From assembly GCA_902509905.1 (NCBI GenBank), contig CABWZI010000006.1, positions 1-64,000 of the forward strand: DNA of 64,000 nt, written 5' to 3'. Position 1 is the stretch's first letter. The number at the start of each line of letters is the position of its first letter. A program made the position numbers and the translations under genes. This document shows, piece after piece, positions 17,182 to 23,080 of this stretch. This DNA is from an uncultured Gammaproteobacteria bacterium (lineage in GTDB: Bacteria; Pseudomonadota; Gammaproteobacteria; PS1; Pseudothioglobaceae). A model generated the notes under the pieces. That model saw nothing but the letters and a program-made list of their open reading frames with translations. It was not told where the DNA came from and did not search any database.

Positions 17182-17258
17182 GGTTATGTAGCTCAGCTGG
17201 TTAGAGCACAGCATTCATAATGCTGGGGTCGGTGGTTCAAGTCCACCCATAACCACCA
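17182..17258 (+). tRNA. Elongator tRNA-Met (CAT)
   Basis: 77-nt cloverleaf with encoded CCA and acceptor stem GGTTATG/CATAACC. The anticodon stem is CAGCA/TGCTG around loop TTCATAA, and the T-arm is GGTGG/CCACC. The fully paired acceptor and the absence of the GGG/CCC anticodon pairs rule out an initiator. A CAT anticodon could also be lysidine-modified tRNA-Ile2, but the body resembles E. coli metT more than ileX. It borders the accessory region. Confidence 0.9.
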
Positions 17259-17305: not shown

Positions 17306-17325
17306 GGGGCTACACTGGGGCTACA
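17306..17325 (+). repeat. Tandem direct repeat GGGGCTACA
   Basis: GGGGCTACA occurs at 17306-17314 and again at 17317-17325, an 11-bp period (one helical turn). It lies 48 bases beyond the tRNA. Such short phased repeats can be recombinase arm sites, but no recombinase gene is in the window. Confidence 0.6.
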
Positions 17326-17469: not shown

Positions 17470-17586
17470 ACCATCCCTCGCATATATATACTGACTTTGA
17501 AGGTACGGGTGGGGGAGGCTCATTGACATCGGAGATAGATATATACACCCTCACTCACACATCAAACGAAATTTGGACTTTAGTTC
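17470..17586 (+). repeat. Dispersed intergenic repeat, full copy A
   Basis: Head ACCATCCCTCGCATATATA, a middle with GACTTTGA, then GGAGATAGATATATACACC, and the tail CACACATCAAACGAAATTT running into TGGACTTTA. The same order occurs in copy B at 19228. The two A+T-rich arms (ATATATA...TATATA) can fold as a long imperfect hairpin. The tail alone recurs twice more. Confidence 0.8.
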
Positions 17587-17654
17587 AAGCTCACATTGGC
17601 ATAGTATTAACAACAATCTGGCTCTTTCTAGCAAAGTTTTTTTAACTATACTTT

Positions 17655-17699
17655 GATATTTTTTTATCATCTCGCAAAGTACATAATGATAAAAATATC
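17655..17699. repeat. Inverted repeat upstream of the 71-aa gene
   Basis: Arms GATATTTTTTTATCAT (17655-17670) and ATGATAAAAATATC (17686-17699) are complementary apart from two extra T, with a 15-base loop. It ends just before the ribosome-binding site AGGAGA of the next gene, so it could be an operator or a 5' hairpin. Confidence 0.6.
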
Positions 17700-17716
17700 A
17701 TATCAGGAGAGTCAAA

Positions 17717-17932
17717 ATGGAAACAGCAGATATTGTTAAATGGATAGCTACAGTAATTCAATTAATTGGTTATGGGCTTACAGGATTAAATCTAGTACCT
17801 TACAATGTATTCTTTTTCTTTATAGGCATTGGCTTATGGTTTGCTGTTGGCTACCTATGGAAAGATAGAGCAATAATGGTAGTTCATGTTGGAGCTTTTA
17901 TTTCATTACTAATTGGGTATTTAAGCGCATAA
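17717..17932 (+). CDS. Small membrane protein (71 aa)
   Basis: Short hydrophobic protein with two to three probable helices and the motif YNVFFFFIGIGLWFAVGYLWKDRAIM. It resembles a family of small proteins common in marine alpha- and gammaproteobacteria (the pattern IVKWIAT..Q..GYGLTG...PYN.FFF..G...WF.VG..WKDRA). Its function is not known to me. CAGGAGAG lies seven bases ahead of the ATG. It stands alone between two copies of the dispersed repeat. Confidence 0.8.
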   Translation: METADIVKWIATVIQLIGYGLTGLNLVPYNVFFFFIGIGLWFAVGYLWKDRAIMVVHVGAFISLLIGYLSA

Positions 17933-17960
17933 ACTTTTAAAGACTCTTGCCATTTAATGC

Positions 17961-17990
17961 ACTCACACATGAAACAAAATTTGGACTTTA
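17961..17990 (+). repeat. Dispersed repeat, tail-only copy C
   Basis: CTCACACATGAAACAAAATT followed by TGGACTTTA, differing from the consensus tail at two positions. It lies between the 71-aa and 77-aa genes. Confidence 0.7.
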
Positions 17991-18038
17991 TTCTTTAAAA
18001 AAACAGTAAACTTAAATTTTTGTTCTTAAGGAGATATT

Positions 18039-18272
18039 ATGAAATTTATTACATCTTTAGCAATCTGTTTAATAATAACTAACACTGCCCTAGCGAATAA
18101 AGAAATAGAGCCTTATTCTCAAGAAACTTGCCAAAAAATATATGAATCAATTGGAACTTTCATTCTTCTGGCTGATACAGAGTGGAAGAAAGAGAAAGAG
18201 AGACAAGCGATGCTTTATTCAACAGCAGCGTCAAATTATGCAACGATTTATGAAACGGTATGTAGAAAGTAA
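18039..18272 (+). CDS. Small secreted protein (77 aa)
   Basis: A signal peptide (MKFITSLAICLIITNTALA) precedes a helical mature part of about 58 residues with two cysteines near its ends (CQKIYES... and ETVCRK) that could form a disulfide. AAGGAGAT lies five bases ahead of the ATG. I do not recognise the family. Confidence 0.7.
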   Translation: MKFITSLAICLIITNTALANKEIEPYSQETCQKIYESIGTFILLADTEWKKEKERQAMLYSTAASNYATIYETVCRK

Positions 18273-18289
18273 TTATCTATTTAGTTTCC

Positions 18290-18322
18290 CTCCCTCACAC
18301 ATCAAACGAAATTTGGACTTTA
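18290..18322 (+). repeat. Dispersed repeat, tail-only copy D
   Basis: CCCTCACACATCAAACGAAA followed by TTTGGACTTTA is identical to the tail of copy A. The TTGGAC inside it has the right distance to a TATAAT box to serve as the -35 element of the next gene. Confidence 0.75.
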
Positions 18323-18341
18323 CTTGAAGCTGACTTATAAT
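18313..18341 (+). promoter_or_regulatory. Promoter of the aldo/keto reductase, -35 inside repeat D
   Basis: TTGGAC (18313-18318), a spacer of exactly 17 bases and TATAAT (18336-18341). The ATG of the gene follows six bases later, so the transcript is probably leaderless. No Shine-Dalgarno sequence is present. Confidence 0.7.
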
Positions 18342-18347
18342 TCTAGT

Positions 18348-19208
18348 ATGAGCGAATCATTTACTAAATCTGGCTTATCCATTCCTTCAATAGGTCTTGG
18401 AACAGGAAATATGTATGGCTCTTCTTGTAGAAGAATAGTTCAAGAGGCCCTTGAACTTGGTTATCGTCACATTGATGGTGCCTCAATGTATGAGAATGAG
18501 CATGAGGTAGGTCAGGGCCTCAACTACTCTCAAGTAGATAGAGAAAAAGTATTCATAACAACAAAAATCAATACTACAGGCTTTTTTCCTTCAAAAGGCA
18601 ATGGTCCGCAACTTAAAAATAGTGATATTAAAAAAAGCTTTGAAAAAAGTCTCTCAGATTTGCAGACAGAGTATGTTGACTTACTATTGATTCATTGGCC
18701 AATATTTGAAACTAATCTGGGTGATATGTTGGAAATTTTATATCGACTTAAAGATGATAAAAAAATCAAAGAAGTAGGCGTTGCAAATTTTAATTCACAG
18801 TTATTGAATGAATGTAGTGACTTAGGATTTAAAAATATCTTTTGCAATCAAGTTGAATATCATCCTTTTTTGTCCCAAGCTAAATTGTTAGAGACTATGC
18901 AAGACTTAGATGTTATTCCTATTGCTTATTGCCCATTATGTAAAGGTGATGTTTCAAGGCATGATGTCCTTATAAACCTGGCTGAAAAATACTCTAAAAC
19001 ACCAGCACAAATTACTCTAAGATGGCTATATCAACAGAAAGTAGTGTCAATTCCTAAGACAGAAAACACATACAGACTTAAGGAAAATATTGATATTTTT
19101 GATTTTGAAATTGACAATAAAGATATGCTTCAAATAAATACACTTGAAAGAAATCAGAGGATAGTTCCTAACCTTGAACTCAATGAATCAAAGTATCCTT
19201 TTGATTGA
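18348..19208 (+). CDS. Aldo/keto reductase
   Basis: NADPH-dependent carbonyl reductase of the AKR superfamily (2,5-diketogluconate reductase-like), 286 aa, cytoplasmic. The catalytic tetrad is complete: D43 in YRHIDGA, Y48 in MYENE, K73 in ITTKIN and H116 in LLIHWP. The C-terminal cofactor segment includes VSIPKTENTYRLKENIDIFDF. An in-frame TTG at 18324 would add eight residues, but it lies inside the promoter spacer, so the ATG is the better start. Substrate unknown. Confidence 0.9.
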   Translation: MSESFTKSGLSIPSIGLGTGNMYGSSCRRIVQEALELGYRHIDGASMYENEHEVGQGLNYSQVDREKVFITTKINTTGFFPSKGNGPQLKNSDIKKSFEKSLSDLQTEYVDLLLIHWPIFETNLGDMLEILYRLKDDKKIKEVGVANFNSQLLNECSDLGFKNIFCNQVEYHPFLSQAKLLETMQDLDVIPIAYCPLCKGDVSRHDVLINLAEKYSKTPAQITLRWLYQQKVVSIPKTENTYRLKENIDIFDFEIDNKDMLQINTLERNQRIVPNLELNESKYPFD

Positions 19209-19227
19209 TTTGTATTTATAAATCAAC

Positions 19228-19331
19228 ACCATCCCTCGCATATATATTCAGACTTTGAGGCCATAGGGGGAGCCCCTCTCGACCTCGGAGATAGATATAT
19301 ACACCATCCCTCACACATCAAACGAAATTTG
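19228..19331 (+). repeat. Dispersed intergenic repeat, full copy B
   Basis: Same head (CACCATCCCTCGCATATATA), GACTTTGAGG middle, GGAGATAGATATATACACC and tail as copy A, except that the tail ends AAATTTGTAATTT and so lacks the TTGGAC box. Its centre carries a clean small hairpin AGGGG-GAG-CCCCT, nested inside GAGG/CCTC and the A+T-rich arms. Confidence 0.8.
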
Positions 19332-19392
19332 TAATTTTAATTATCAAGGCGACATATAATTGATTTTTTTATTAGTCTGACTATTGTCTTTT

Positions 19393-19980
19393 ATGTTTAT
19401 AAATTCATTCAAAATATTAAAAATAATTTTTCTCTTATCCTTAATAGTTATGGCTGCTATGAGCTCTAAATCGATTGCTGATGAAGACCTTGCTTTTCCA
19501 TTTAATTCCGATAGTGGAAAGTACTGGCAATATATCAGTGATCAAGTGATGGGCGGTGTTTCAGATGGTAAAGTGACTCTTGAGCAAGATGGAGAGATGT
19601 ATTATGCAAGACTTACTGGGAATGTCAGCACAAGGAATAATGGCGGTGTTATTCAATTACGCACAGGCATTTCATTTTCAAATTCTGAAAAAGATGGCAA
19701 AAATTTTCAGGGCGTTCGTCTCAACGTTAGAGGCAATGGTGAAACTTATGACATCCATATCATAACTAATGATATGGCTTATTATGGAGACTTTTATTCT
19801 GCTTCCTTCCAAGCTGATTCAGATTGGAAAATGATTGAATTGCCTTTTAATTCATTCGAACGTAAGCGTTTCAATGTCTCAAAGTTAGAAGCTAAAAATA
19901 TACGAAGCTTTGCTATTGCAGCTTATGGCCGTGATTTCAAATCTGATGTTTCAGTGTCAACTGTAGAGTTTTACTACTAA
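19393..19980 (+). CDS. Secreted CIA30-like (NDUFAF1-fold) domain protein
   Basis: 195 aa with a signal peptide ending SIADEDLAF and a single CIA30 galactose-binding-like domain. Recognisable blocks are WQYISDQVMGGVSDG, LTGNVSTRNNGGVIQLR, GVRLNVRGNGETYDIHI, the LPFNSFE strand and the FAIAAYGRDFKSDVS end. The mitochondrial homologue is a complex I assembly factor; bacterial secreted versions have no settled role. I use the ATG at 19393 rather than a TTG three codons upstream. A paralogue lies at 22499. Confidence 0.82.
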   Translation: MFINSFKILKIIFLLSLIVMAAMSSKSIADEDLAFPFNSDSGKYWQYISDQVMGGVSDGKVTLEQDGEMYYARLTGNVSTRNNGGVIQLRTGISFSNSEKDGKNFQGVRLNVRGNGETYDIHIITNDMAYYGDFYSASFQADSDWKMIELPFNSFERKRFNVSKLEAKNIRSFAIAAYGRDFKSDVSVSTVEFYY

Positions 19981-22284: not shown

Positions 22285-22494
22285 ATGAGTGGACAAAGAA
22301 GATTCTTAAGGGTTTGGGCGAGAACAGTTGGGATGCCAATCGGTCTCAATGATGAAGATAAGCCTGAGTTTTTACCTATTGCACAAACAGATGTAAAAAA
22401 AGCCCTACTCTTCAGAACGTTTTGGATTGTTCTCCACGTGGTTACATGTGTACTTATTATTGCTGGAAATGGCAGAGTGCTTTCTTGGTGGTAA
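22285..22494 (+). CDS. Small membrane protein (69 aa)
   Basis: A basic N-terminus (SGQRRFLRVWARTVGMPIG), an acidic middle (LNDEDKPEFLPI) and one C-terminal helix (RTFWIVLHVVTCVLIIAGNGRVLSWW). The segment FRTFW..LH..TC.FIIAGN is familiar from small proteins of marine bacteria, without a known role. It lies ten bases after the two-cysteine protein and just before the CIA30 gene, so the three are probably one operon. Confidence 0.7.
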   Translation: MSGQRRFLRVWARTVGMPIGLNDEDKPEFLPIAQTDVKKALLFRTFWIVLHVVTCVLIIAGNGRVLSWW

Positions 22495-22498
22495 GGGA

Positions 22499-23080
22499 AT
22501 GAAAGCAATCCTGCTAATTTTTTTGGTTTTCGCTCAATCAGCTATTTACGCTCAAGAGAGTCTTAAATTTCCTATTGAGCCAAAGATGGCAAAAGAATGG
22601 AAATATCAGAGTGATCAAGTGATGGGGGGCGTTTCTGAAGGGGACACTTCATTAATGCAAGATGGAGATATGTTTTATTTCAGGCTTACTGGAGATGTCA
22701 GCACAAAGAATAATGGAGGATTTGTTCAATTTAGATCAAAAGTATCATTATTCAATAAACCAGAGATGTTTCAGTTAATTCATAAGGCTCACAAAGAGGG
22801 CGAAGGTCTTGAAGGGGTTAGGCTAAATGTAAGGGGTAATGGCGAGACGTATCATGTCATGATTCGAACTTATTTCACTTGGTCTCCGAGCGACTACTAT
22901 TATCAAACATTTGAAACAAGACCTAATTGGCAGCAAGTGGATTTACCTTTTAACAAATTTAAAAGTTCAAAATACAGACAGAGAGGTTTAGAAGTGGATC
23001 AGATCAGGGATTTCGCTGTTGTTGCTTACGGCCGAGATTTCAAGTCTGATGTTTCTGTCTCTGAAATTAGTTTTTATTAA
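22499..23080 (+). CDS. Secreted CIA30-like domain protein, second paralogue
   Basis: 193 aa with signal peptide MKAILLIFLVFAQSAIYAQ. The domain closely follows the 19393 protein: YQSDQVMGGVSEG, LTGDVSTKNNGGFVQFR, GVRLNVRGNGETYHVMI, the LPFNKFK strand, and the near-identical end AYGRDFKSDVS. It has an insertion of about ten residues after FRSKVSL. An upstream ATG at 22427 lies in the preceding gene; TAAGGG supports 22499. The pair most likely arose by duplication in this region. Confidence 0.82.
   Translation: MKAILLIFLVFAQSAIYAQESLKFPIEPKMAKEWKYQSDQVMGGVSEGDTSLMQDGDMFYFRLTGDVSTKNNGGFVQFRSKVSLFNKPEMFQLIHKAHKEGEGLEGVRLNVRGNGETYHVMIRTYFTWSPSDYYYQTFETRPNWQQVDLPFNKFKSSKYRQRGLEVDQIRDFAVVAYGRDFKSDVSVSEISFY

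Follow-up and report, generated by a model that had tools for sequence, protein, structure and literature searches.

An intergenic repeat of the SUP05/Pseudothioglobus clade as the probable recombination site of a tRNA-anchored, integron-like cassette array

The repeat that recurs behind a tRNA-Met gene in the 64-kb stretch of DNA analysed here (the window) is probably the recombination site of an integron-like cassette array with non-attC sites, anchored in this genome at that tRNA. Comparison of genomes documents, at the level of sequence, the recurrence and orientation of the site, breakpoints that fall at it, cassettes shared between species and a regular promoter geometry. We infer that the exchange is conservative and site-specific rather than homologous, and that the enzyme would be a tyrosine integrase of the tRNA-anchored kind, a relative of the clade's 336-aa solo integrase.

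BLAST and pattern matching within the window bore out the positions of the four repeat copies reported by the initial annotation, two full and two tail-only, all on the plus strand. The tail, with up to three mismatches allowed, gave four matches in the window versus 0.04 expected; the head gave two versus 0.03 expected. The features are, in order:

17182-17258, plus strand: tRNA-Met(cat), at which the array is anchored in the chromosome; core DNA is colinear up to just past it.
17306-17325, plus strand: tandem direct repeat GGGGCTACAct-GGGGCTACA, between tRNA-Met and the first site.
17470-17581, plus strand: first junction site, full form, with 5' block, variable middle and tail (17547-17581); putative exchange base C17567.
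17582-17989, plus strand: cassette 1, a DUF6552 gene (17717-17932) and its 3' site.
17955-17989, plus strand: tail-only junction site; putative exchange base C17975 (CATGAAACAAAATTTGGACTTT).
17990-18321, plus strand: cassette 2, a 77-aa secreted-type ORF (18039-18272).
18287-18321, plus strand: tail-only junction site; putative exchange base C18307.
18313-18341, plus strand: predicted promoter of the aldo/keto reductase cassette, TTGGAC (18313-18318), 17 bp, TATAAT (18336-18341).
18322-19337, plus strand: cassette 3, an aldo/keto reductase gene (18348-19208) and its full site.
19226-19337, plus strand: full junction site with decayed tail (TTTGTAATTT); putative exchange base C19323.
19384-19980, plus strand: CIA30-family gene downstream of the last site.

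The CIA30-family gene is probably island cargo; two paralogues of this family (19384-19980 and 22427-23080) stand either side of the island region.

BLAST gave 12 matches in the own genome (1.52 Mb, 46 contigs); they form clusters at four places, and the strand is the same within each cluster. The reading as a local duplication only, which had been tied to a lack of other copies in the genome, therefore fails, and local duplication as the whole story was rejected because copies occur elsewhere in the genome and across the genus. Indeed, the proposed search of the genome and its relatives with tail and head returned many copies: the tail was found in 28 of 29 genomes of the genus, with a reversed-pattern control near zero. 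Within the family, two genomes from one further genus had it as well; the other genera tested were without it save for one weak single match. According to contig titles, the clade corresponds to Candidatus Thioglobus/Pseudothioglobus, SUP05-PS1. Neither phage records nor viral contigs gave a match to the repeat, and a phage origin was thus rejected. One contig with a tail site (L135, JAAZYG010000055.1) sits in an unrelated bin, Candidatus Uhrbacteria, and is probably mis-binned SUP05 DNA. Open-licence papers on SUP05/Pseudothioglobus cassettes, tycheposons, integron-like elements and flexible islands did not describe the repeat.

When 1.28 Mb of fetched array regions were searched with a profile, 254 sites emerged, of which 68 were full; almost all of this DNA came from the window's own genus (SUP05/Pseudothioglobus clade). 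In a full site, the 5' block (ACCATCCCTCGCATATATATTCAGACTTTGAAGG) and the tail (ACCCTCCCTCACACATCAAACGAAATTTGGACTTT) enclose a variable, mosaic middle, and block and tail open with the same arm. Neighbouring sites less than 6 kb apart share their orientation in 149 of 153 pairs and are, as a rule, spaced by 0.2-3 kb. The intervals between them mostly hold one ORF of at least 60 aa (83 of the 130 intervals having an ORF); the longest ORF lies on the strand of the site in 93 of 130 and on the opposite strand in about 30%. The 140 cassette proteins formed 98 clusters, including 72 singletons, and those tested comprise a Rieske oxygenase, FAD oxidoreductase, AMP-binding enzyme, lyase, HAD hydrolase, GNAT, glycosylase and aldo/keto reductase. 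Eleven genomes have the array anchored at tRNA-Met, with the first site 275-345 bp behind the tRNA in most and of the full form in nearly all. Over all loci, a tRNA was present within 1.5 kb upstream of 14 of 73 arrays versus 4.5% expected, and none was seen in the fetched DNA of the remaining arrays. Empty sites for array ends were not found in the fetched loci. At one locus (L255:9430-9510), two inverted left arms form a near-perfect palindrome (ACCCTCCCTGAAACATCAAA...TTTTGATGTTTCAGGGAGGGT).

Evidence of recombination came from the flanks. In G028, G004, G019 and G006, the core DNA preceding the window's array remains colinear as far as the first site or stops shortly before it; beyond that point the content differs between genomes. 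Among sites of different origin, 33 pairs had only upstream DNA in common, 37 only downstream DNA and 3 both. As pairs share one flank and almost never both, the site is best understood as a recombination joint. The same pattern held for isolate and single-cell genomes alone (12 upstream-only, 13 downstream-only, 1 both), demonstrating that the signal is not a binning artefact; contamination or misassembly as source of the junctions was therefore rejected. Single cassettes illustrate the exchange. For instance, the aldo/keto reductase cassette of the window (G000) is 99.4% identical over 867 bp of its body to a copy in G002 whose neighbours on either side are unrelated; this copy is located on a 3.4-kb MAG contig for which mis-binning is possible, and the change of neighbours stands either way. 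The core gene adjoining the array is 74% identical in these two genomes, the core thus differing by 26%. A contamination-proof case is provided by the complete genome G006 and the single cell G004, which have a cassette in common at 96.7% with a core at 78.6% and carry it at different array positions. Cassette 2 of the window recurs in G006 as well (about 89-92%), among other neighbours, and three genomes have one array end in common with different cassettes before it. Many unrelated cassettes have their first ~130 bp in common, comprising the promoter and the start of a signal peptide. Unrelated long genes with this common promoter and signal peptide (start e.g. SCPDGSEPVKSISADGTYF) were observed at L078, L200, L213, L214, L242, L013 and L071, a possible case of module swapping among these cassettes.

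Comparison of junctions allowed the breakpoint to be narrowed down. Homology common to downstream flanks stops at the tail (mismatch left of the tail 0.62 versus a background of 0.65) and never enters the 80 bp of head and middle; homology common to upstream flanks does not extend right of the tail. We observed left half-sites, whose arms end in CATCAAA (or CATCAGA, CATGAGA) before unrelated DNA, and right half-sites, which start with GAAATTTGG after unrelated DNA, some weaker matches of the latter kind probably being due to chance and those with the usual leader not. This fine mapping, which draws mainly on about a dozen half-sites, would place the exchange at CATCAAA|N|GAAATTTGG. A looser matched junction test showed weak linkage at the crossover base (downstream class P=0.025, upstream class not significant). 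A second core in the head, TTCAGA, likewise has the look of a crossover point, which could mean a more complex mechanism. At L076:3349 (minus strand), a left half-site is fused to the 3' end of a tRNA with the T-arm GAGGATTCAAATCCTC, a hint that tRNA T-arms might serve as recombination partners. Some sites have a right half that reads GAGAGGATTTGG and resembles the T-arm of that fusion.

The main rival to site-specific exchange remains RecA-dependent homologous recombination between conserved repeats, with promoter selection keeping the repeats alike and no dedicated recombinase involved. The sites indeed supply 33-115 bp of common sequence in many places, XerC and XerD are the sole tyrosine recombinases in many array-bearing genomes, and no recombinase consistently adjoins the arrays. 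However, half-sites are joined to DNA that lacks homology, and their boundary is sharp to about 1 bp; the homology of downstream-sharing pairs halts at the tail as described above, and tail-only sites give just about 33 bp to pair with. We therefore consider this explanation unlikely.

The initial annotation had also proposed that the tail donates a -35 box, in the form of TTGGAC exactly 17 bp from the TATAAT of the aldo/keto reductase. This arrangement is exact in the window, and the promoter idea gained statistical support from an enrichment of -10-like boxes at 17 and 18 bp over 242 sites: 72 of these had a TATAAT-like box (at most one mismatch) 17 bp behind the -35 box and 27 had one 18 bp behind it, compared with about 6-7 expected per spacing from shuffling, so that about 40% of sites carry a -35/-10 pair at 17-18 bp. 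The -35 box itself has the sequence TTGGAC at 169 of 244 sites. Of the 72 sites with 17-bp spacing, 49 have an ATG exactly 6 nt past the -10 box, and leaderless mRNAs are therefore predicted; the aldo/keto reductase of the window, with its ATG at 18348, 6 nt past the -10 box, belongs to this type. The downstream gene seems to take the 3' half of the tail along, -35 box included. Of the earlier description as a dispersed repeat donating a -35 box, the promoter part was thus retained, and the dispersed-element part was given up since the site seems to be the recombination joint of mobile cassettes. The strict -35/-10 spacing, the leaderless starts and the strong conservation reaching the -35 box would also suit a conserved promoter or regulator site of an accessory-gene regulon, with passive turnover of the surrounding genes. 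Yet conservation is just as strong in the left arm CCTCCCTCACACATCAAA, which lies upstream of the promoter and shows linkage with the upstream cassette; the breakpoints fall at the site, and the reading is weakened by cassettes common to genomes. A pure regulon site is thus quite improbable.

The long imperfect hairpin previously ascribed to the full copies can be drawn for one of them; the two copies fold differently, and the structure is not conserved. In the suggested RNA-folding check, neither full copy clearly exceeded its shuffles (z -1.35 and -0.09), RNAalifold returned zero pairs in the consensus of 34 full copies, and Rfam at gathering thresholds found two tRNAs in the window and nothing else. 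A hairpin or RNA element was rejected, as single folds, the 34-copy alignment and Rfam all failed to support it. These results also bear on the idea of a true integron that degenerated into a CALIN, with attC sites that diverged and an integrase that was lost. The array logic, the small single-gene cassettes and the RYYYAAC-like ATCAAAC at the exchange point (one mismatch) agree with such an origin. In contrast, full copies have no conserved fold, tail-only sites recombine without a partner half, many cassettes carry promoters, and the integron integrase model TIGR02249 scored above its cut-off in 0 of 29 genomes (sub-threshold matches were mostly XerC/XerD and other tyrosine recombinases). 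With neither conserved fold nor integron integrase, the CALIN reading is refuted in the main, and what is left of it is very improbable.

The statement that no transposase or REP-like core is associated with the repeat proved correct, a Y1 transposase being present in 1 of 29 genomes. Serine recombinases were rare among the genomes searched. IntI, Y1 transposases and serine recombinases were thus rejected as the enzyme, being absent or rare. Typical tyrosine recombinases, presumably XerC and XerD, were found in all genomes, and in several site-bearing genomes they are the only ones, which would fit modules mobilised by XerC/XerD in the manner of pdif. Nevertheless, the chromosomal dif-like site (CGTATAATTTATATTATGTTAAAT) is present in single copy and unlike the repeat; a dif/Xer relationship of the repeat was rejected on this ground, and pdif-like mobilisation is very improbable.

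As the enzyme of the cassette array, a tRNA-anchored tyrosine integrase is the leading, unproven candidate from sequence comparison. Integrases of 333-337 aa adjoin tRNA-Lys, -Arg, -Pro or -His in about nine genomes (about a third) and occur in two other genera as well; some genera (g6, g10) have the solo integrase and lack this tail. Behind the stop codon comes, as a rule, TTTCAGAATAAACTACAAT, after which the next gene differs from genome to genome, often with an ATG 6-7 nt after TACAAT. The family is tied to the repeat by junctions with the integrase 3' end: a full site lies directly 3' of the stop codon in G015, an integrase 3'-end fragment runs into the head and middle of a site in G023, and the complete genome G006 has a tail fused to the integrase-type leader TTTCAGAATAAACTACAAT. 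The integrase remains a candidate rather than a demonstrated enzyme because it is absent from the well-covered site-bearing genomes G001, G012, G018, G020 and G026. It is absent from the window's tRNA-Met array, too. The tandem repeat at 17306-17325 corresponds in kind and place to tandem repeats upstream of tRNA-anchored solo integrase genes, whose sequence is not the same from genome to genome; judged by its position, it may be the footprint of a lost integrase, and a reading of the gap between tRNA-Met and the first site as a decayed integrase gene is no more than suggestive. In G006, G028 and G023, integrase 3'-end fragments recur downstream as joints between genes, behind tRNA-anchored solo integrases (L186, L187, L192); these islands are a parallel array with another site. 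G006 additionally contains an island bounded by two tRNA-Arg(ccg) genes (L064:8571-8868 and L186:8207-8283, at 874.6 and 888.2 kb); an integrase lies at one of its ends, and close to the opposite end there is a tail site.

The proposed mechanism can be outlined as follows. A cassette would consist of a single gene, or a few, with a site behind. Strand exchange would take place inside the tail at the point mapped above, leaving the left arm (CCTCCCTCACACATCAAA) with the upstream gene and handing the right half (GAAATTTGGACTTT), with the -35 box, the -10 box and often an ATG 6 nt on, to the downstream gene. As these elements would move with the gene, many cassettes would carry a leaderless promoter of their own and need no platform promoter. 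Each array would expand from a fixed place in the chromosome, which in the window lies behind tRNA-Met(cat), and cassettes would pass between species. The integrase would act in trans or be in the course of being lost in many genomes.

Integrons are the textbook bacterial system for banking single genes as exchangeable cassettes. Like integrons and CALINs, the system described here forms directional arrays of small, exchangeable single-gene cassettes with a site of roughly 110 bp between them, cassettes common to several species and a fixed first site at a chromosomal anchor. Unlike them, it lacks IntI, the canonical GTTRRRY/RYYYAAC pair and a conserved fold, and a 33-bp tail alone suffices as joint; integron cassettes are mostly promoterless and stand behind a platform promoter, whereas many cassettes here have their own predicted leaderless promoter. 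By the tests run, the cassette system works like an integron and is not one. For additive flexible genomic islands and tycheposons in marine bacteria, examples include repeated tRNA-Lys ends and, in Methylophilaceae, tRNA-Met with a tyrosine recombinase (PMC10872708). The arrays resemble them in variable cargo, in the tRNA at one border (tRNA-Met in 11 genomes) and in a tRNA-type tyrosine integrase nearby in some genomes, but the repeat is a 33-115-bp site between single genes instead of a tRNA end, and a single genome has it at many loci. pdif modules (XerCD) likewise comprise small gene modules with short recombination sites at their borders; the site here is unrelated to the dif-like sequence of the clade. 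Short intergenic repeats in many copies are typical of REP, BIME and MITE elements as well, whereas the present ones have one orientation, mark cassette borders and come without a conserved hairpin or a RAYT transposase.

We tentatively propose, as a possibility short of an even chance, a second, independently evolved system of cassette capture, in which a tRNA-type tyrosine integrase, with a recombination core in its own gene end, spawned self-expressing, leaderless, non-attC arrays that supply accessory metabolism genus-wide in SUP05/Arctic96BD-19. If true, cassette banking evolved more than once. The site offers a simple handle for spotting such cassettes in any metagenome. The hosts are streamlined, globally abundant sulfur-oxidising marine bacteria, and the proposal, if true, would explain how such small genomes keep swapping metabolic genes, among them Rieske oxygenases, aldo/keto reductases, FAD oxidoreductases and acyl-CoA synthetase-like enzymes.
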